Below are positions 3,058 to 30,321 of a stretch of DNA of 39,110 nucleotides, piece after piece (position 1 is the stretch's first letter; the number at the start of each line of letters is the position of its first letter). This DNA is from a virus. The position numbers were made by a program, and so were the translations under genes. Where the stretch lies: positions 1-39,110 of IMG/VR virus record IMGVR_UViG_3300044533_000249, one strand, 5' to 3'. Below the pieces are notes generated by a model that did not search any database, was not told where the DNA came from, and worked only from the letters and a program-made list of their open reading frames with translations.

Positions 3058-3837
3058 TTGAGCGACGAAGAACAGGCTGTAACGGAGATCAGCACCGGGC
3101 CAGAGCAGGAAGTTACGGCAGCTCCTGAATCTGTGGAAATATCGCCGGAGGAACAAGCTCAACTTAAGACTTTTACTGAAAAACAAGTAGAAGATGTAGT
3201 TGAGACGCGCCTGAAAAGACAACGACGTAAATTGGAACGCGAGTTCGCTGAAAGGATTGCGGAACAACAGGCTAGAAAGCCAGTTGCACCTCCCCCAGCG
3301 CCAGATGATTTTGAGAACGCTCATGCCTATGCGGAAGCATTGGCGGAGCAAAAAGCTCAAGAGCTTCTGGCACAACGAGAGACCGCAAAACAACAGGCAG
3401 CTCTGCTTGAAACATATAGAGATCGTGAAGAGGAAGCGCGCGATAGATACGATGACTTTGAACAAGTCGCGTATAATCCAAACCTCCCCGTAACGGCCTA
3501 TATGGCTCAAGCTATCCAGGCTTCAGACATTGGCCCCGAAGTGATCTATCACTTAGGCTCCAATCCAAAAGAGGCCCAACGGATCGCCAATTTGCCGCCG
3601 ATTTTGCAGGCAAAGGAGATCGGTAGACTCGAGGCCAAACTGGTCGCGGAACCGCCGACAAAACGCACTTCAACTGCGCCAGCTCCGCTTGCTCCTGTTA
3701 CAACTACTCGGTCAAGCTCCGGCCCTAGATATGATACGACAGACCCTAGGTCTACAAAGTCGATGTCAACATCAGAATGGATTGAAGCCGACAGGTTGCG
3801 ACAGATCAAGAAGTTGGAAGCGCAAAACCGTAGGTAA
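3058..3837 (+). CDS. Scaffolding protein (P22 gp8-like)
   Basis: 259 residues, directly upstream of the coat gene and downstream of the packaging/portal block, which is the usual place for a scaffold. The protein is very rich in Glu, Gln, Arg and Ala with long predicted coiled-coil stretches (about residues 30-135). A Pro/Thr/Ser linker is followed by a basic C-terminal helix (SEWIEADRLRQIKKLEAQ), where P22-type scaffolds bind coat. The start is a TTG at 3058 with a good Shine-Dalgarno (AAGGA) seven bases upstream; no ATG fits the N-terminus. It would direct procapsid assembly and then leave the head. Confidence 0.8.
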   Translation: MSDEEQAVTEISTGPEQEVTAAPESVEISPEEQAQLKTFTEKQVEDVVETRLKRQRRKLEREFAERIAEQQARKPVAPPPAPDDFENAHAYAEALAEQKAQELLAQRETAKQQAALLETYRDREEEARDRYDDFEQVAYNPNLPVTAYMAQAIQASDIGPEVIYHLGSNPKEAQRIANLPPILQAKEIGRLEAKLVAEPPTKRTSTAPAPLAPVTTTRSSSGPRYDTTDPRSTKSMSTSEWIEADRLRQIKKLEAQNRR

Positions 3838-3844
3838 TTAAATC

Positions 3845-5041
3845 ATGTCTAACTCGATTTTAACAATCGACATGATTACTCGCAAGGCTCTTGAGATCCT
3901 TGAGAATAGTCTTGTCCTCACGCGCACTGTAAACCGTCAGTATGACGACTCTTTCGCTGTAGAAGGCGCTAAGATCGGCTCGACCCTCCGCATCCGTCTT
4001 CCTGACCGCGCATTGGTCACGGACGGCGCTGCCCTTCAGGTTCAGGACGACAACGAGCAATACACCACGCTCACTGTTTCCAGCCAGAAGCACATCGGCG
4101 TGAACTTCACGACCGCCGAACTTACGATGCAGTTGGACGACTTCGCTGAACGTGTTCTGAAGCCTCGTATTTCGCAGCTTGCGTCTTCTATCGACGCCGA
4201 CGTTGCGAACAGCTTCAAATACATCGGCAACTCGGTCGGCACCCCAGGCACCACGCCTGCTACGTCGCTCGTCCTGTTGCAGGCCCAGCAAAAGCTCAAC
4301 GAGAACGCCGCAGTTATGCAGCCTCGTTATGCCACTGTTAACCCAGCCGCTAACGCTGCGTTGATCGAAGGCATGAAAGGTCTGTTCAACCCTGTTTCAG
4401 CTATCTCGAAGCAGTTCAAGAACGGCATGTTTGGTGAAGGCATTCTCGGCTACGACGAGCTGAATATGTCTCAGTCAATCAAGCAGTTCACGACCGGCTC
4501 ACGCACGGGCACCGTAACTGTCAATGCGACTGTCACGGCTGAAGGCTCAACGACTGTTGTTCTGACGGGCCTTGGCTCGACGATCATCAAAGCTGGCGAC
4601 GTGTTCACCATCGGTAGCGTCTTCGCTGTCAACCCACAGACCCGTGAGTCAACCGGCTCGCTGTATCAGTTCGTTGCTCTTGCTGACGTTACGGCGTCAA
4701 CGACGGCTTCGGTCACTGTTCCTGCGATGTATTCGGCTTCTCAGGCTCTCGCCACGGTTGACGCTCTGCCGGTTTCCGGCGCGGCTGTCACGTTCCTCGG
4801 CGCTGCTTCAACGCAGTATCCACAGAACTTGATCTATCATCGTGACGCGATCAGCTTCGCCACCGCCGACCTTCTGCTTCCGCAGGGTGTCGATATGGCA
4901 AGCCGTCAGGTTCACAATGGCATCAGCTTACGCGTTGTTCGTCAGTATGACATCAACAACGACCGTCTGCCTTGCCGTATTGACGTGCTCTATGGCTACA
5001 GCGTGATTCGTCCGCAGATGGCCGTTCGCCTTTGGGGCTAA
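3845..5041 (+). CDS. Major capsid (coat) protein, P22 gp5-like
   Basis: 398 residues, close to the 430 of P22 coat. The N-terminus (ILTIDMITRKALEILEN) followed by IGSTLRIRLP and LQVQDDNEQYTTLTV is the pattern of the P22 coat family within the HK97 fold. Residues about 215-315 (Thr/Val-rich: GTVTVNATVTAEG, GDVFTIGSV) correspond to the inserted beta domain. Codons are strongly biased to C-ending forms compared with the neighbours, as expected for a very highly expressed gene. It is followed at once by a terminator hairpin. Confidence 0.9.
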   Translation: MSNSILTIDMITRKALEILENSLVLTRTVNRQYDDSFAVEGAKIGSTLRIRLPDRALVTDGAALQVQDDNEQYTTLTVSSQKHIGVNFTTAELTMQLDDFAERVLKPRISQLASSIDADVANSFKYIGNSVGTPGTTPATSLVLLQAQQKLNENAAVMQPRYATVNPAANAALIEGMKGLFNPVSAISKQFKNGMFGEGILGYDELNMSQSIKQFTTGSRTGTVTVNATVTAEGSTTVVLTGLGSTIIKAGDVFTIGSVFAVNPQTRESTGSLYQFVALADVTASTTASVTVPAMYSASQALATVDALPVSGAAVTFLGAASTQYPQNLIYHRDAISFATADLLLPQGVDMASRQVHNGISLRVVRQYDINNDRLPCRIDVLYGYSVIRPQMAVRLWG

Positions 5042-6383: not shown

Positions 6384-7002
6384 CGCGCTATTTGCTCTTC
6401 AACAAATGATCGACAGTTGGGACACCGAACGACTCGCGGTGTTCTCAACTCAGGATCAAGTTTTCAATTGGCCGTCAGGCGAACGCACACGCACGTTAGG
6501 CCCAACGGGCGATTTCGTTGGCTTGCGACCTGTATTGCTGGACGATTCTACCTACTTCCGCGATCCGCAGACCAATGTGTCTTACGGAATCAAGTTTATC
6601 AATCAACAGCAATATAACGGCATTGCTGTTAAAACGGTAACGTCTACTTATCCACAAGTCATGTTTACGAATATGACCTACCCAGATATTGAGATGGTCA
6701 TTTACCCCGTGCCGTTGCGGTTGCTGGAGTGGCATTTTATCTCGGTCGAAAAACTCACGCAGCCCGCGACGTTGGCGACGACGATCCTTTTCCCGCCTGG
6801 GTATTTGCGGGCGTTCCGTTACAATCTGGCTTGCGAATTGGCCCCTGAGTTTGGCATAGAGCCATCGCCTACGGTCAGCCGTATTGCTATGTATAGCAAA
6901 CGCAATCTGAAGCGCATCAATAACCCTGACGATATTATGGCTCTGCCTTACAGCATTGTTGGCACACGTCAACGCTATAATATTTACGCAGGGAACTACT
7001 AA
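6286..7002 (+). CDS. Head-tail adaptor / tail accessory factor (P22 gp4-like)
   Basis: 238 residues. I chose the ATG at 6286 (MTTYSCYDQIV) over the in-frame ATG at 6256, because the helical start DQIVGAMRLLGVLAEGE ... ALFALQQMIDSWDTERL is the characteristic N-terminus of the P22 gp4 family and GAGAGG lies at a suitable distance. The family adds below the portal ring and forms the platform for the next adaptor. P22 gp4 is 166 residues; the longer C-terminal part here is common in relatives. The stop overlaps the next start as TAATG. Confidence 0.8.
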   Translation: MTTYSCYDQIVGAMRLLGVLAEGETPSSETANDALFALQQMIDSWDTERLAVFSTQDQVFNWPSGERTRTLGPTGDFVGLRPVLLDDSTYFRDPQTNVSYGIKFINQQQYNGIAVKTVTSTYPQVMFTNMTYPDIEMVIYPVPLRLLEWHFISVEKLTQPATLATTILFPPGYLRAFRYNLACELAPEFGIEPSPTVSRIAMYSKRNLKRINNPDDIMALPYSIVGTRQRYNIYAGNY

Positions 7003-17021: not shown

Positions 17022-18303
17022 CTAAGGCTAACTCCGCTATTTTGCGCTTGTTATGCAGCGCCTCTAAAATCCCACTGTCAATAGTATCATTACACATGAT
17101 GAGGTAACACCAAACATCTTTTGTCTGTCCGCCGCGATGTATGCGCCCGATTGTCTGTTCATAAAGTTCTAGCGACCACGGCAATGACAGCCAGATCATT
17201 TTATTGCCGCCGTGTTGCAGGTTCAGCCCATGACCTGCGCTCTTTGGATGCAGGGCTAATAATTCGAGTTCACCTTTGTTCCACTTGTCAACGACGTTTT
17301 TGTCGTCCATTGTAGAGAGTTGTGGATAACGTCGTTTAAGTTCGGCAAGTTCTTCTTGGTAATTGTAGACAATGATTGTGTTGTCGTGTTGGTTTTCGTC
17401 AAGAATATCTTCTAGCATGTCGAACTTGTGATCTGAAATCCGCGTCGGGCCTTCTGGGCCGTAAACAAACCCGCCCGCGAGCTGTTGCAGTTTCTGAGTC
17501 ATTACCGCCGCTGTCGGCGCGGAGATCACTTGTTCGCGTAACTCCAAGACAAATTTCTTTTTCATGGCAAGATAAACGTCATAATCGTCCATGCTACAGC
17601 GCATCTTCACAATGTTGAGCGGTGGCAACTTGTCTTTGTATTCCCCAGGCTCAAGCACATAAGTCACAGGCTTGATCGCGGCCATCACGTATTCAAGCGC
17701 GTTACTGTTTGGTGCCCATTGGTTAAACTCGCGGTTTATAAGGTGAAAGTGTTGTTGCAGAAACGCGCCTTTGCTGCGGCCTAATAATTTTTGATCTATG
17801 ATCTTGCATTGGCCGAACACGTCTTCGAGGCCGTTCGACGTGAACGATCCTGTCAAACCCCAACGCACGTTAAACTTATCAATCAAGCCCCATAGGTGTT
17901 TAAACCTTTTGCCGCTTGGATTTTTTAACTTCGTAAGTTCGTCGAATACAACGCCAGCAAAGCCAGTAAAATTACTAAGATCGAGTGAAGTAATATTGTC
18001 ATAGTTTGTGACCACGATGTCTGCGTCTGAATCAAAGGCGGCTTTGCGTTGCGCTGGCGTTCCGACGGCAACGGCGATTTCAAACTCTGGACACCATTTC
18101 TTGCCTTCAACAGGCCAGACATCAGTGCAAACGCGCTTGGGCGCAAGCACTAGCCAACGATCAACAAGACCACGCGCAAGCAGTTCAGTCATTGCAGTTA
18201 ATGTGATCGCGGTCTTTCCTGCGCCGACGGGCGCAAGAATCATTGCGCGGTCGCGCGCAAATAAAAAGTCTGCGGCTTCATCTTGATACGGTCGTAATTT
18301 CAC
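17008..18303 (-). CDS. SNF2-family DNA helicase/translocase
   Basis: 431 residues from the GTG at 18303 (VKLRPYQDEAADFLF). Motif I is APVGAGKT at 24-31, motif II DELT at 121-124 and motif VI GRIHRGGQ at 386-393, giving a complete two-lobed superfamily 2 core of the SNF2/DEAD-like type. I prefer this GTG because AGGTGG lies just upstream; the ATG at 18345 would add 14 residues with no ribosome site. With the VRR-NUC gene upstream it forms a known phage helicase-nuclease pair, probably used in replication or recombination. Confidence 0.85.
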   Translation of the reverse strand: MKLRPYQDEAADFLFARDRAMILAPVGAGKTAITLTAMTELLARGLVDRWLVLAPKRVCTDVWPVEGKKWCPEFEIAVAVGTPAQRKAAFDSDADIVVTNYDNITSLDLSNFTGFAGVVFDELTKLKNPSGKRFKHLWGLIDKFNVRWGLTGSFTSNGLEDVFGQCKIIDQKLLGRSKGAFLQQHFHLINREFNQWAPNSNALEYVMAAIKPVTYVLEPGEYKDKLPPLNIVKMRCSMDDYDVYLAMKKKFVLELREQVISAPTAAVMTQKLQQLAGGFVYGPEGPTRISDHKFDMLEDILDENQHDNTIIVYNYQEELAELKRRYPQLSTMDDKNVVDKWNKGELELLALHPKSAGHGLNLQHGGNKMIWLSLPWSLELYEQTIGRIHRGGQTKDVWCYLIMCNDTIDSGILEALHNKRKIAELALDELA

Positions 18304-21225: not shown

Positions 21226-23150
21226 TCTGGCTTGACTTTGAAACGCGCAGTCATTGCGATCTAAGAGCGCATGGCGTCTATATCTACGCGCAAGACAAGA
21301 CAACACAAGTGTTGTGTATGTCCTTTGCACACGACGATGAGAACGTATCGACGACAACAAACATGTCGGAGATGCGGCACATCTTGTCAGAGAAGCCGCA
21401 ACAGATCCGCGCGCATAACGCGGCATTTGAGCGGCTGATCATAAAGCATGTGTTAGGCTTAGACATACCATTAGAACAGTTCTACTGCACGGCGGCGCAG
21501 GCGCGCGCTAATTGCGCGCCTGGGTCACTGGAAGACGTTGGCAGATTCTACGGCGCGTCGATGAAGAAAGATCACAAAGGCGCTGCGCTTATTCGCAAGC
21601 TGTCCATACCACAGAAGGACGGCACGTTTAAAGAGAGCCCATACTTGCTAGACAAGATGATCGCCTATTGTGAGCAAGACGTGCGCGCGATGCGCGTCAT
21701 TAGTAAGATGATGCGCGAACTGACCGACGAAGAGTTAGCAGATTACTACGTTAACGAGCGCATCAATGATCGTGGCGTGTTGGTTGATACTATAACATGC
21801 GGCGCGGCGGGCATGTATAGCCGCGAGGAAACGCTGGCGATTCAAAACCGCATAGATGTCTTGACGAAAGGCGAAGTCACCGCAGCGCGCGGAACTAAAA
21901 TGCGCGATTGGGTTTTGGCTAACGTAACAAACGAAGCCTATGATGTCGTCATGCGCGACGGTAAGGCGACGATTGATAAGCGCACACGCGAAATGTTGAT
22001 GGAGCTGGGGCCGGATCTTGTCGAGCCTGACGTGTTAGAAGCTATCGAACTGGTTGACGGCGGATGGTCATCATCGGTTGCTAAGTTTAATCGGCTTTAC
22101 AATTTAGCAGGAGATGATCGCCGCGTCCGTGGCGCGTTTGTGTTTGCTGGCGGTAGCGCCACAGGCCGCGCGTCTAGCTACGGCGCACAGGTGCATAACT
22201 TTCCGCGTGAGTGTGTAAAAGATCCTGACGCAGTGGCGCAGGCAATGGCGTTCTCGCGCGATCTAGTGCCTAAGTTCGGACGACGTGTAAATGATGTTTT
22301 ACGCGGCATGTTGCGCCCGTCTCTTTGCGCGGCGAAAGGCAAAGCATTAATTGCTGCCGATTGGTCGGCTATCGAAGGCCGCGTTAATCCGTGGTTGTCC
22401 AATAAAGGCCAAGATAAGCTAAACGTGTTCATTAACGGTCAAGATGTTTACAAGACTAACGCGGCGGCAACGTATAAAGTTTCTTACGACGAGGTATCAA
22501 AAGACCAACGCCAGGTTGGCAAAGTGCAAGAGCTGGCGTGTGGGTTCGGCGGTGGCCTTGGCGCGTTTGCTGCGATGGGTAAGATTTACGGATTAAAATT
22601 AGCCGCACCTAAAGCAAGACAAATGGTGAACGCATGGCGCTGGTCTAATCAGTGGGCGGTTACTTTCTGGCAAGAATTAGAATCCGCATACATGACTGCG
22701 ATGAGAAAGAAAGGGGAAGTTTCGACGGCAGGTAAAATAAATTACTTGTTCGACGGCTTACACCTTTGGTATTCTCTGCCTTCTGGGCGTGTGCTTTGTT
22801 ACCCATTCGCGCGCTTCGAGGAAAACGGCAACTTAACGTATGCAAAAGCATCTTGGAAGCCTGCGGCAGACGCCGAAGAATGGCCCAGGGGTAAGCTATG
22901 GCATGGCCTCGCGTGTGAGAATGTTACACAGGCGACCGCCCATGACCTTTTGCGTGATGCTTTGCGCCGTTGTGAGCGTGAGAATCTTAATGTTGTTTTG
23001 CATGTGCACGATGAAATTGTTTTGGAATCATCGTCGCCGGACGAAGATAAGATAAAATTAGAATTAATTATGACCACGCCCCCGTCATGGGCCGAAGGTC
23101 TGCCGCTTGAAGCGGAAGTAAAAATCATGGGAAGTAGATACGGAAAATGA
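21222..23150 (+). CDS. Family A DNA polymerase with 3'-5' exonuclease
   Basis: 642 residues. The exonuclease domain comes first: Exo I DFET (D5, E7), Exo II-like AHNAAFE at 64-70 and Exo III YCEQD (149-153). Palm and fingers follow: motif A ADWSAIEGRV with D380, motif B R430xxxK434 ... CGFGGG and motif C VHDE at 595-598. The 5'-nuclease domain of bacterial Pol I is absent, as in other phage replicases. It is probably the replicative polymerase, working with the primase-helicase two genes on. Both ends overlap neighbours by 4 bp. Confidence 0.92.
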   Translation: MIWLDFETRSHCDLRAHGVYIYAQDKTTQVLCMSFAHDDENVSTTTNMSEMRHILSEKPQQIRAHNAAFERLIIKHVLGLDIPLEQFYCTAAQARANCAPGSLEDVGRFYGASMKKDHKGAALIRKLSIPQKDGTFKESPYLLDKMIAYCEQDVRAMRVISKMMRELTDEELADYYVNERINDRGVLVDTITCGAAGMYSREETLAIQNRIDVLTKGEVTAARGTKMRDWVLANVTNEAYDVVMRDGKATIDKRTREMLMELGPDLVEPDVLEAIELVDGGWSSSVAKFNRLYNLAGDDRRVRGAFVFAGGSATGRASSYGAQVHNFPRECVKDPDAVAQAMAFSRDLVPKFGRRVNDVLRGMLRPSLCAAKGKALIAADWSAIEGRVNPWLSNKGQDKLNVFINGQDVYKTNAAATYKVSYDEVSKDQRQVGKVQELACGFGGGLGAFAAMGKIYGLKLAAPKARQMVNAWRWSNQWAVTFWQELESAYMTAMRKKGEVSTAGKINYLFDGLHLWYSLPSGRVLCYPFARFEENGNLTYAKASWKPAADAEEWPRGKLWHGLACENVTQATAHDLLRDALRRCERENLNVVLHVHDEIVLESSSPDEDKIKLELIMTTPPSWAEGLPLEAEVKIMGSRYGK

Positions 23151-23875
23151 TTGCAGTTTGGTTTTCATGCGGAGCCGCCAGCGCAGTCGCGGCAAAACTG
23201 ACGTTAGAAAAATATTCTGACGTTCGCGTAATAAATAATCCTGTAGCGGAAGAGGACGACGACAATCGCCGGTTTCTGCGCGACGTTGAATCCTGGCTTG
23301 GCATTAAGATTGAAAGCGCTATCAACCCTAAATACCCTACCGCGTCTGCGTATGATGTATGGGCTTATCGTAATTATATGTCGGGCGTTAGCGGGGCAGT
23401 CTGCACGGTAGAACTAAAAAAGCGCGCGCGGCAGATATGGGAACAGACAAACAAAGCCGAATGGCATGTGCTTGGTTTTACCGTCGATGAAAAACATCGG
23501 TTTGATAGATTTGTTTTAACTGAGCGCGATAATGTTTTACCTGTTTTAATTGACGCAGGACTAACAAAGCAAGACTGTTTAGACCGCATTATAGCCGCTG
23601 GCATAAAGCCGCCACGCGTTTACGGTCTTGGCTTTCCAAACGCTAATTGCATTGGCTGCGTAAAAGCAACGTCACCTACCTACTGGAATCTTGTCCGACG
23701 CACGCACCCAGAGGCGTTTCAACAGCGCGCCGAACAATCGCGGGGGCTTGGGGTGAAGTTGGTAAGGTATAAAAACAAACGTATTTATCTTGATGAACTG
23801 CCAGCGGACGCAAAAGGAAGACCAATAGCTAAAATGCAAATTGACTGCGGTATATTTTGCGAGGAAAGAATATGA
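23147..23875 (+). CDS. PAPS reductase-like (adenine nucleotide alpha hydrolase) protein
   Basis: 242 residues. The N-terminal loop WFSCGAASAVAA (residues 5-16) is a variant of the SxGxxS ATP-binding loop of PAPS reductases and PP-loop enzymes. Seven cysteines are present (8, 86, 144, 168, 171, 234, 238), among them NCIGC and the final CGIFC, which could hold a metal or iron-sulfur centre as in DndC-like proteins. A sulfur or nucleotide transfer to nucleic acid is one idea; substrate unknown. It is tightly overlapped by polymerase and primase genes, so it belongs to replication-time expression. Confidence 0.75.
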   Translation: MIAVWFSCGAASAVAAKLTLEKYSDVRVINNPVAEEDDDNRRFLRDVESWLGIKIESAINPKYPTASAYDVWAYRNYMSGVSGAVCTVELKKRARQIWEQTNKAEWHVLGFTVDEKHRFDRFVLTERDNVLPVLIDAGLTKQDCLDRIIAAGIKPPRVYGLGFPNANCIGCVKATSPTYWNLVRRTHPEAFQQRAEQSRGLGVKLVRYKNKRIYLDELPADAKGRPIAKMQIDCGIFCEERI

Positions 23876-26338: not shown

Positions 26339-26369
26339 GACCCTTTGGAGGGTCTGATCATGCTTTTCT
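26339..26369. terminator. Terminator between convergent operons
   Basis: GACCCT / AGGGTC (26339-26354) with loop TTGG, followed rightward by a T-rich stretch (TGCTTTTCTTT). It lies 30 bases after the lipoprotein stop and touches the end of the leftward gene at 26358, where it probably ends the rightward replication operon. Confidence 0.6.
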
Positions 26370-26579
26370 TTGCATTGCTGCAAGAATTTTTATTTTTGCT
26401 GTTTCGTCCACCTCAACCAGCGCCTCTTCGAGCGCCAAGCGAAGGCGGTTGCTTTCGTCCACGGCGGCGGTGATCGTCCATTGTGACCGTTGCCGCGCCT
26501 CTTCATATCCTTTAAGATAGGCCGCAGAAACTTCTTGCTGCAACGCCTTTAAGCGCCGCTCATATTCGGTGTCAGTCAC
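26358..26579 (-). CDS. Small coiled-coil protein after an internal terminator
   Basis: 73 residues from a GTG at 26579 (VTDTEYERRLKALQQEVSAA), almost wholly helical with heptad-like spacing. I place the start here because the upstream open frame (to a TTG at 26693) runs through a terminator hairpin and looks non-coding. No strong ribosome site is visible. Function unknown. Confidence 0.6.
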   Translation of the reverse strand: MTDTEYERRLKALQQEVSAAYLKGYEEARQRSQWTITAAVDESNRLRLALEEALVEVDETAKIKILAAMQRKA

Positions 26580-26588
26580 GTTAGCACC

Positions 26589-26618
26589 AAAAATAACCCC
26601 GCGTCGGTAGACACGGGG
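26589..26618 (-). terminator. Leftward intrinsic terminator
   Basis: Read on the minus strand, CCCCGTGTC pairs with GACGCGGGG (one G-T pair) around TACC and is followed by TTATTTTT. It lies after the DnaA-like gene and nine bases before the last small gene of the operon. Confidence 0.85.
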
Positions 26619-26689
26619 CCAAGTCAAGGGGAGGTCAATACGCTCCCGACTAATAGCAGATTCCCAGACCGTCGTATAGGTAGACGGGA

Positions 26690-26986
26690 TCAACGAGCAC
26701 GATCATACTTAGCCCCTCTCAGTTTAGCTTCCCAACATTTGACGCCATAGATCACCGTAGAATGGTCGCGCTTGAATATACGCGCAAGTTTTAAATAGCT
26801 AGAGTGGGTTTCATATCTAGCGCGATACATGGCCTTGTGACGAGCTTGCACGATCTTTGATACTCGTTTGTAGCCCACAATGTCTGACGGGAATATCAAG
26901 AACTCATCAGCCACTTCGGCTATTATTTCACGCACGAACACGTCGCCTTCCCTTTCATTGCTTGTGTCCCACCACGGCGCTCTCAC
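26690..26986 (-). CDS. DnaA domain IV-only DNA-binding protein
   Basis: 98 residues. VSKIVQARHKAMYRARYETH ... SYLKLARIFKRDHSTVIYGV matches the C-terminal DNA-binding domain of DnaA, including the RDH(S/T)TV signature (residues 73-78). R49 aligns with E. coli R407, and H75, S76, T77 with the base-contacting H434, T435, T436. The AAA+ domain is absent, so it cannot act as a full initiator. It is in the leftward operon whose two promoters each carry a perfect DnaA box, so autoregulation or competition with host DnaA is plausible. Confidence 0.88.
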   Translation of the reverse strand: MRAPWWDTSNEREGDVFVREIIAEVADEFLIFPSDIVGYKRVSKIVQARHKAMYRARYETHSSYLKLARIFKRDHSTVIYGVKCWEAKLRGAKYDRAR

Positions 26987-27174
26987 TGTTTCATCTTTCT
27001 CGCAAATGAATCAAGATCGGCTTGCGTCCAGCCCGCAGCGGCTTGATGCTCTTCAATTTTCTTCATAACCCGCGCAAACTTCTCTTCCACGTCCGGCCCT
27101 TCCCCGCTGACCGTGACGGTCTTTGCAGGGTTGCCTTGGCTGTCAACCAAAACGAGCTTCATTGATTTCTTCAT
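26983..27174 (-). CDS. 63-residue conserved small protein
   Basis: MKKSMKLVLVDSQGNPAKTV starts a beta-strand opening followed by helices (DVEEKFARVMKKIEEHQAAA). ATG 27174 is used; an internal ATG at 27162 is possible. The stop overlaps the DnaA-like start (ATGA), so the two are co-translated. No family recognised. Confidence 0.6.
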   Translation of the reverse strand: MKKSMKLVLVDSQGNPAKTVTVSGEGPDVEEKFARVMKKIEEHQAAAGWTQADLDSFARKMKQ

Positions 27175-27355
27175 TTTGCAGTTCCACTTTTTCTCTTATG
27201 GCTTTCATGCGCGACGCTATGCTGCCAGGTAACTGATTCAGCGCTGCGCCGATCTGATGGTTGTCCAGCCCTTGTTGGCGCAAGTCCCATATGCGTTGCT
27301 CGTATGGCGTCAGCGCCGCAGGGTCTTTCATGTGTCTTTGTGGTTCTATCGTCAT
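27143..27355 (-). CDS. 70-residue HTH protein (sigma region 4-like)
   Basis: LTPYEQRIWDLRQQGLDNHQ ... IGAALNQLPGSIASRMKAI has the same HTH spacing as the protein at 20440-20619 and resembles sigma-70 region 4. The start is coupled by ATGA to the AlpA-like gene before it. Probably a small transcription regulator. Confidence 0.7.
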   Translation of the reverse strand: MTIEPQRHMKDPAALTPYEQRIWDLRQQGLDNHQIGAALNQLPGSIASRMKAIREKVELQNEEINEARFG

Positions 27356-27561
27356 TTATTTTTTGCCTCTTCCACCGAACTGACCGCGCGGCTATCCAGC
27401 CATGCGTCAAGATCTTTTTTACGGTATCTGACCGCGCCGCCTAACTTGCAATAGGCTGGCCCTTGACCAAGAAAACGAAAGCGTTCCATCGTTGGTTTTT
27501 TAAGCCCGACATACGCGGCGGCTTCGATGGTCGTCATTACTTCGGTTACTATCGTGCTCAT
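27352..27561 (-). CDS. AlpA/excisionase-family HTH protein
   Basis: 69 residues. MTTIEAAAYVGLKKPTMERF ... GQGPAYCKLGGAVRYRKKDL is the MerR-like winged helix of the AlpA/Xis (HTH_17) family, with the usual final DLDAWLDSR. Members bind DNA as excision factors or transcription regulators. No integrase is visible in the window, so a regulatory role is more likely. It is joined to both neighbours by ATGA overlaps. Confidence 0.8.
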   Translation of the reverse strand: MSTIVTEVMTTIEAAAYVGLKKPTMERFRFLGQGPAYCKLGGAVRYRKKDLDAWLDSRAVSSVEEAKNK

Positions 27562-28743: not shown

Positions 28744-28836
28744 TCAATATCCTACAATGTGAGGGATTACGTTGGTGAAGATGACGACCGCTATCAGTGC
28801 GGTCGCCAAGTTGATGAGGGTGCTGTCGGGGCTCAT
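28744..28836 (-). CDS. 30-residue membrane protein (second)
   Basis: MSPDSTLINLATALIAVVIF, then TNVIPHIVGY: one transmembrane helix. The ATGA overlap with the gene before it and the two-base gap to the gene after it indicate translation. It is similar in length and layout, not in sequence, to 27683-27775. Confidence 0.65.
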   Translation of the reverse strand: MSPDSTLINLATALIAVVIFTNVIPHIVGY

Positions 28837-29024
28837 TTGTAGAACCCCAAACCGGCTGCTTGTATGCGCTTGGCGAGTGCTACGATCTCGTCCGCGCCCG
28901 GATACATGCACACCGCGAACGGATGCTTCTTGTTGTAGTTGACCAGCGCGCAGGCAGCGCGGAAGGTCTTGTCATGGTTGCCAGAGGCGTAGGCGTTTTT
29001 GAGGTTTTGGATCTTGCCGTTCAT
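28833..29024 (-). CDS. 63-residue small protein, first gene after promoter P2
   Basis: The start at 29024 (MNGKIQNLKNAYASGNHDKT) has a strong AAGGAGAG ribosome site. The C-terminal half ends DEIVALAKRIQAAGLGFYK. It is transcribed from the promoter at 29049-29077. No family recognised; as an early leader gene it may act on host functions. Confidence 0.65.
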   Translation of the reverse strand: MNGKIQNLKNAYASGNHDKTFRAACALVNYNKKHPFAVCMYPGADEIVALAKRIQAAGLGFYK

Positions 29025-29048
29025 TTGACTCTCCTTTTGATGTTTGTA

Positions 29049-29077
29049 GTTATACACATGTTTAAAAGTTATGTCAA
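29049..29077 (-). promoter_or_regulatory. Leftward sigma70 promoter P2 with DnaA box
   Basis: On the minus strand, TTGACA (29072-29077) and TATAAC (29049-29054) are separated by exactly 17 bases. A perfect DnaA box TTATACACA lies on the plus strand at 29050-29058, over the -10 and into the spacer. Its ACATGTGTATAACT core is identical to that of P1. Confidence 0.85.
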
Positions 29078-29266
29078 ATACTTTTTTACATTACGGCGAA
29101 AAAAAAGAACATGTTTTTTAGCGATGCGCGTCGCCATTGCGCGGGTGAGACAAACGCCTTCACGCAACACAATCGTCTCGCGTGGCGTCTCGCGGTTAAA
29201 GCCGCTCACATGCCAAACATATCCGGTAGGAGTTTTGGTGGTGGCCCAGGCGTAACAGTTATACAT
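29069..29266 (-). CDS. 65-residue protein, first gene of the leftward operon
   Basis: MYNCYAWATTKTPTGYVWHV, then SGFNRETPRETIVLREGVCL and a basic end (KKHVLFFRRNVKKYLT). AAAGGA precedes the ATG, about 30 bases downstream of promoter P1. The P2 -35 element lies over its stop codon. No family recognised; its position suggests one of the first proteins made after infection. Confidence 0.65.
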   Translation of the reverse strand: MYNCYAWATTKTPTGYVWHVSGFNRETPRETIVLREGVCLTRAMATRIAKKHVLFFRRNVKKYLT

Positions 29267-29295: not shown

Positions 29296-29324
29296 GTTAT
29301 ACACATGTGCACAACTAGTGTCAA
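29296..29324 (-). promoter_or_regulatory. Leftward sigma70 promoter P1 with DnaA box
   Basis: On the minus strand, TTGACA (29319-29324) and TATAAC (29296-29301) have 17-base spacing. A perfect DnaA box TTATACACA lies at 29297-29305 on the plus strand, across the -10. The palindrome CACATGTG sits just upstream of the -10. Confidence 0.88.
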
Positions 29325-29365
29325 TAGTTATTTTACACAAAATAAGATATTTTTTTACGGTGTGG

Positions 29366-29727: not shown

Positions 29728-29766
29728 CAATAAAGACGCAGTAACATAAAGCGTGCGCGCCGTCAA

Positions 29767-30240
29767 GTTTACGTAAACTAAGTTTACAATCACGACGCGC
29801 CCGCGCTGGCAGTCGCTCGCCTGGTAGCTACATGACGAGCGCGCGCAGTGCGCGCCGCCAAGCGATCTTTAGTTTACATTCAGTAAGCGCGCACCGCTTT
29901 GTTTACATAAACACGTTTACAGCAAACAAGCGCGCGCTCGCGTCAATAGAACAAAGCGCGCACATTAACTGTCACACATTTGTTTACATAAACACGTTTA
30001 CCGCAAACGATAGTTTACATTCAGTTATTATATACCGCGCGTTTACATAAACATGATTATTATAAACTCCCCGTTTACATAAACACGTTTACATAAACAA
30101 AGCTGCATGATTGTAAACTGTGCCATAATGATACAGTTTACATTCAACCCCGCCGTTTACATAAACATGTTTACGTAAACATTAAGTTTACATTTGTTTA
30201 CATTCAGCTCCGTGTTTACATAAACTTAGTTTACATTCAG
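29767..30240. repeat. Array of 18 GTTTAC sites (iteron/operator-like)
   Basis: Eighteen plus-strand GTTTAC hexamers occur in 474 bp. Nine are near-palindromes GTTTAC(A/G)TAAAC, at 29767, 29901, 29982, 30041, 30073, 30087, 30155, 30169 and 30214. Five are GTTTACATTCA(G/A), at 29872, 30013, 30136, 30196 and 30229. Two are GTTTAC(A/C)(G)CAAAC, at 29915 and 29996. Two are variants (29782, 30186), and one lone GTAAAC lies at 30113. Four pairs have an exact 14-bp start-to-start distance (29901/29915, 29982/29996, 30073/30087, 30155/30169), and the pairs recur every 81-91 bp. The 16-bp sequence at 30167-30182 is a perfect palindrome. Confidence 0.9.
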
Positions 30241-30321
30241 CTCGGCCAGGGGGCTCTGGGCCAGAGGGAAGGCGGGAATATCTATACAGGGACTGCACGA
30301 AATTTTTATTATTTTATCAGC

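Follow-up and report, generated by a model that had tools for sequence, protein, structure and literature searches.

A free-standing DnaA domain IV protein in a freshwater podovirus, probably an autoregulator acting at DnaA-box-like operators

In this work we analysed a freshwater phage genome taken from an IMG/VR virus record (39,110 bases; this whole stretch is called the window below), in which a gene at 26690-26986 on the minus strand encodes a protein of 98 amino acids that consists of DnaA domain IV alone. The gene has a GTG start and a stop codon at 26690-26692, and its identification is based on profile, structure and relatives. The phage is a P22-like podovirus: its portal, coat and terminase genes are of the P22 type, and it has genes of its own for a DNA polymerase, a primase, a helicase and an exonuclease. 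Among the genes scanned there was no integrase. A match to phosphoadenosine phosphosulfate reductase (PHROG 424), an auxiliary metabolic gene, lies at 23147-23875 and separates the genes for the DNA polymerase and the primase. The nearest GenBank record is MW202483.1, which originates from Manatee Spring. Relatives of the terminase are found in MAG bins of Rhodoferax, Burkholderiales, Methylococcaceae and others, which gives only a hint of the host. A search of bacterial genomes for relatives, based on the DnaA domain IV protein, found none; a search with strict limits in 369 genomes of one class also found none, and is weak since it had no positive control.

The original prediction had described a free-standing DnaA domain IV without an AAA+ domain, and our results confirm this. 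The Pfam family Bac_DnaA_C (PF08299) covers residues 19-83 of the protein with E=1.1e-17 and 64.2 bits, above the curated cut-off of 31.5 bits, and phmmer against PDB sequences found DnaA chains only. The AlphaFold2 model, made from an input alignment of 19 rows, has a mean pLDDT of 84.4, and residues 21-90 average at least 90. A comparison of the predicted structure with DnaA domain IV had been suggested as a check, and the top 12 Foldseek matches in the PDB are indeed all DnaA (probability 0.99-1.00, TM about 0.6-0.73), including the DnaA-box complexes 3pvp and 1j1v. A full-length DnaA initiator can be ruled out by the size of the protein, as there is no room for an AAA+ part in 98 amino acids, and by its score against the full-length DnaA equivalog TIGR00362, which is 54.3 bits compared to a cut-off of 343.9, with the match limited to the domain IV part.

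In DnaA itself, no domain other than IV is needed for duplex specificity (PMC5835720). We judged the contact residues of the phage protein against the list summarised in PMC7561715 and the residues named in the original prediction. The equivalences to E. coli DnaA proposed there are correct for R49 (R407), H75 (H434) and T77 (T436), and S76 occupies the position of T435, a conservative change; R41 (R399) and D74 (D433) are also kept and had been overlooked. Three contact equivalents are altered, namely P423 to L65, H439 to Y80 and Q408 to H50, although the H439 equivalent stays a histidine in the clade C relatives. Taken by its sequence, the protein appears to retain the ability to read DnaA boxes.

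Relatives of the protein with 62-98% identity are present in 30 IMG/VR contigs, and the gene is conserved together with its operon in about 30 such contigs and in MW202483. In the GenBank record the orthologue is annotated 'dnaa protein helix-turn-helix' (UOF77628.1) and is 93% identical by tblastn. Between clades the phage protein differs at residue 41, which is R/K or N, and at residue 80, which is Y or H. Remoter stand-alone domain IV proteins were found in other phages. In the domain tree the phage proteins group beside DnaA, with the exception of one from a Bradyrhizobium phage, whereas the free-standing cellular homologues form a separate clade (support 98/98). The cellular homologues that we read carry RDR[ST]T or RHRST, compared to RDH[ST]T in the phage proteins. 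An orthology with the Caulobacter regulator GafY/HdaB was considered and is not supported by this tree clade, by the contact residues and by the profile NF004688, where the phage protein scores 21.4 bits compared to a cut-off of 136; among the control genomes this profile is found in Caulobacter only, from which we infer that it represents GafY/HdaB.

The gene lies near the end of a leftward operon. The operon starts with a small gene of 65 amino acids at 29069-29266 (minus strand), followed by a second small gene at 28833-29024 (minus strand; MNGKIQNLK...), which is listed as an open reading frame at 28833-29057 and has an ATG start behind a ribosome site. Two other helix-turn-helix genes are found at 27143-27355 and 27352-27561. 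The start of a micro-ORF of 18 amino acids (MIVLVDPVYLYDGLGICY, 26650-26706, minus strand) overlaps the 3' end of the domain IV gene. Each of the 21 contigs examined has such a micro-ORF, 18-21 codons long, which either overlaps this gene or closely trails it and reads M(M)FTYQLIDPALLYDGLGICY in other clades. Its variable columns number 2, 2 and 12 at the three codon positions (13 codons), that is almost all at third positions, a pattern which indicates that the micro-ORF is under coding selection. Its one near match in the phage collection is in MW202483, where it is unannotated, and any role in a switch would be speculation. Behind both genes there is an intrinsic terminator-like hairpin at 26594-26621 (minus strand), with a stem of 12 pairs and then a T run. 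The last in this order is a short helical protein, listed as an open reading frame of 111 amino acids at 26358-26693 (minus strand) and conserved in all relatives that have the domain IV gene. The protein probably begins well downstream of the listed start, at (V/M)TDTEYERRLKALQQEV past the terminator.

Two minus-strand promoters of the form TTGACA-17-TATAAC head the operon, and in both of them the 18 bases through TATAA form an inverted pair of DnaA-box-like 9-mers. The first pair, operator 1, is TTGTGCACA|TGTGTATAA at 29297-29314, with the -35 TTGACA at 29319-29324, and stands ahead of the first small gene. Operator 2, ahead of the second small gene, is TTTTAAACA|TGTGTATAA at 29050-29067, with its -35 at 29072-29077. 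In each case the right arm is the -10. Both operators lie on the minus strand and were identified by pattern match and conservation; they are the only zero-mismatch copies in the window. An extra perfect box, TTTTACACA, is found on the plus strand at 29331-29339 just upstream of the -35 of promoter 1 (TGTGTAAAA on the minus strand), and TGTAAAA is found again ahead of the -35 in other operator copies.

The near relatives have this arrangement one to three times each, and scanning them with the pattern read backwards gave no hits. Over 11 distinct operator copies the right arm is nearly fixed, which is expected because it doubles as the -10. The left arm is free of such promoter duty and occurs as TTGTGCACA, TTTTAAACA, TTGTCCACA, ATTTGCACA, TTATCCACA, TTATCAACA, TTATGCACA, CTGTCCACA and TTTTACACA; it follows the pattern TTWTNCACA, with positions 2, 4, 7, 8 and 9 invariant and positions 3 and 5 free. 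In the spacer preceding it, three of the four bases are nearly without information. One right arm in MW202483 is TGTGCATAA, where a perfect box is kept and the -10 is weakened. In clades B and C, which are more remote branches of the family, the lead promoter mostly has a single site, which is either a perfect box or has one mismatch: clade B has one box, TTTTNCACA, clade C mostly has TTATCC(A/C)CA, and contig L030 has an inverted pair, TTATCAACA|TGGGGATAA. Among 58-base pieces drawn at random from the window, 1% contain a perfect box and 7% a box with one mismatch or none, a comparison that flatters clades B and C as their promoters were partly located via their boxes. The TGTAAYAAATCMACAGG repeats in these two clades were rejected as operators, as most of them cover the junction of two genes, from the stop codon through the linker to the ribosome site.

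Perfect boxes had also been reported in coding DNA at 6648, 17331 and 37850. We find TTATCCACA at 6648 and 37850 on the plus strand as described, while the minus-strand copy is really at 17321; all three are within coding DNA. This is more than expected (three compared to 0.18, and none of 100 shuffles reached three), but conservation did not bear the sites out. The 17321 box is altered in MW202483, the 6648 box is kept in this one relative only, inside a stretch of 84% identity, and the 37850 box had no alignable relative among the loci fetched. The evidence that these boxes are functional sites is weak, and we set them aside.

A region of repeats is found at 29750-30250, an intergenic region between the leftward operon and the terminase genes that adjoins the operators. 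It is dense in direct repeats of GTTTACATAAAC and AGTTTACATTCA, which are also found in relatives, and could possibly be an origin, a packaging site or an operator site.

We suggest that the protein is a phage transcription regulator which reads DnaA-box-like 9-mers. It most likely serves as a gene switch under its own control, and not as a means of attacking host replication. That it is a DnaA-box-reading autoregulatory repressor has in our estimate a probability of about 0.6. Its targets in this phage and the near relatives would be the inverted box pairs between the -35 and -10 of the sigma-70 leftward promoters, one arm of each pair forming the -10. Occupancy of these sites would exclude RNA polymerase, so repression would be the likely effect; and since the domain IV gene lies near the end of the repressed operon, before the terminator, the result would be negative autoregulation. 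We build here on what was observed, which is the fold, the conservation of the gene, its place in the operon and the operator sequences with their conservation pattern. The idea of an autoregulator was already part of the original prediction, and the conserved inverted box pairs at the promoters of the gene's own operon support it.

The domain IV gene is present in every operator carrier and is the only one of the three helix-turn-helix genes of the operon for which this holds; several relatives have kept the operators although the other two were not found in them. In phage DSL-LC05 (L091, OR003940.1) the terminase is related and the genes are laid out similarly, but there is no domain IV gene. 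Its leftward block contains a gene annotated as repressor protein C, for which the helix-turn-helix assignment is weak. At 3600-4260 a different palindrome, ACCCAGTGGGT, sits between the -35 and -10 of the matching leftward promoter and is repeated in the intergenic region; this is likely the operator of the putative repressor C. The presence of the domain IV gene in all operator carriers, together with the different palindrome in DSL-LC05, therefore points to the domain IV protein as the regulator of the leftward operon, and we infer that it, rather than host DnaA, is the binder.

Some observations weaken the autoregulatory repressor. The P423, Q408 and H439 equivalents are changed, the -10 duty partly explains the conservation of the right arm, and the sites of clades B and C are mostly single, some of them with a mismatch. 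DnaA domain IV occupies one box as a monomer, and paired binding is for this reason an assumption. A further observation concerns a Rhodoferax MAG contig (L082) with tandem TGTGGACAA repeats. It has eight box-like copies of TGTGGACAAT (reverse complement ATTGTCCACA), several of them in tandem, on the minus strand 597-1110 bases upstream of terL. We found no domain IV gene in this contig, but the phage sequence in it apparently stops short of the place where the gene would be expected, so the contig decides nothing.

Because the operator arms are good boxes, host DnaA is a possible binder as well. It might even be the main ligand, tying the leftward operon to the host DnaA level, with the phage protein as a competing anti-repressor or modulator. 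DnaA is a known transcription regulator, the candidate host genomes have a normal DnaA, for which the right arm TTATACACA would make a good box. We nevertheless regard this as unlikely, as the form of the operator shifts between phage clades along with residues 41 and 80 of the phage protein, although the sites belong to the same operon throughout, and the clade C sites TTATCCCCA are poorer DnaA boxes. A mixed situation seems quite unlikely to us, in which host DnaA and the phage protein would compete for the same promoters as true DnaA boxes and so couple phage expression to the host replication cycle; a high level of the protein would then also block oriC, and the peptide of 18-21 amino acids could modulate the system.

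The original prediction had put forward the idea that the protein competes with host DnaA at oriC in a dominant-negative manner, halting host initiation during infection. Prophage inhibitors of DnaA such as YfdR are known (PMC4776307), the phage brings its own polymerase, primase and helicase, and a protein with most of the box-contact residues and no AAA+ domain would suit such a role. These residues are also all that the sequence offers for it: the boxes in coding DNA show no clear conservation, and a dedicated operator system at its own operon accounts for the protein without a host role, which makes the competitor rather improbable. It is very unlikely that the protein acts as an activator bringing RNA polymerase to phage promoters in the way of GafY/HdaB, which is likewise a stand-alone DnaA domain IV-like regulator from a prophage-like element (PMC9632790; PMC11150451), given that the sites overlap the -35/-10 rather than lying upstream, that the promoters are near consensus, and that profile, tree and contact residues set the protein apart. 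A phage replication initiator acting at 29750-30250, which the name of the weakly matched PHROG 27829 ('DnaA-like replication initiation protein', E=8e-4) and the dense repeats beside the operators might suggest, is scarcely credible with the AAA+ motor missing, GTTTACATAAAC repeats that are no DnaA boxes, and a phage polymerase and primase at hand.

If the protein is indeed an autoregulatory repressor, the domain with which the nearly universal bacterial initiator reads DNA has become an independent phage gene switch, with DnaA boxes as its operators. The cross-talk between phage and host DnaA could then be tested directly, using a single small protein and two short promoters. Phage proteins that now go by 'DnaA-like replication initiation protein' or 'dnaa protein helix-turn-helix' would also gain a suggested function, and they may have no part in starting replication.

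Within our incomplete coverage of the literature, neither a phage-encoded stand-alone DnaA domain IV nor a phage repressor of this type turned up as already described. The closest counterpart, UOF77628.1 in MW202483.1, shares the operon type and the operators, and the record gives a deposited name only, with function and operator undescribed. GafY (formerly HdaB) of Caulobacter, whose counterpart in Rhodobacter is the N-terminal part of GafA, is also a stand-alone domain IV-like regulator for which transcription rather than oriC is proposed; the authors of that work argue against an action on oriC-based replication (PMC9632790). It activates from an upstream site with IHF and GafZ (PMC11150451), and the GafY-like proteins that we identified have RDR[ST]T and belong to the separate clade, unlike the phage protein with RDH[ST]T; the latter may do a similar job without being an orthologue. 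With the repressors of the lambda/P22 type there is the common feature of an operator between the -35 and -10 of the own operon's promoter. It differs from these in its DNA-binding domain, which is DnaA domain IV, and in its operator, a DnaA-box pair, and no lysogeny genes were recognised in this phage among the genes scanned. With the domain IV of cellular DnaA (PF08299) the phage protein shares the fold, the helix-turn-helix with its RDH[ST]T signature, most of the base-contact residues and probably also the reading of DnaA boxes. Unlike cellular DnaA, it is without domains I-III and the AAA+ motor, has the P423, Q408 and H439 equivalents changed, and is encoded in a phage operon that bears its own inverted-box operators.
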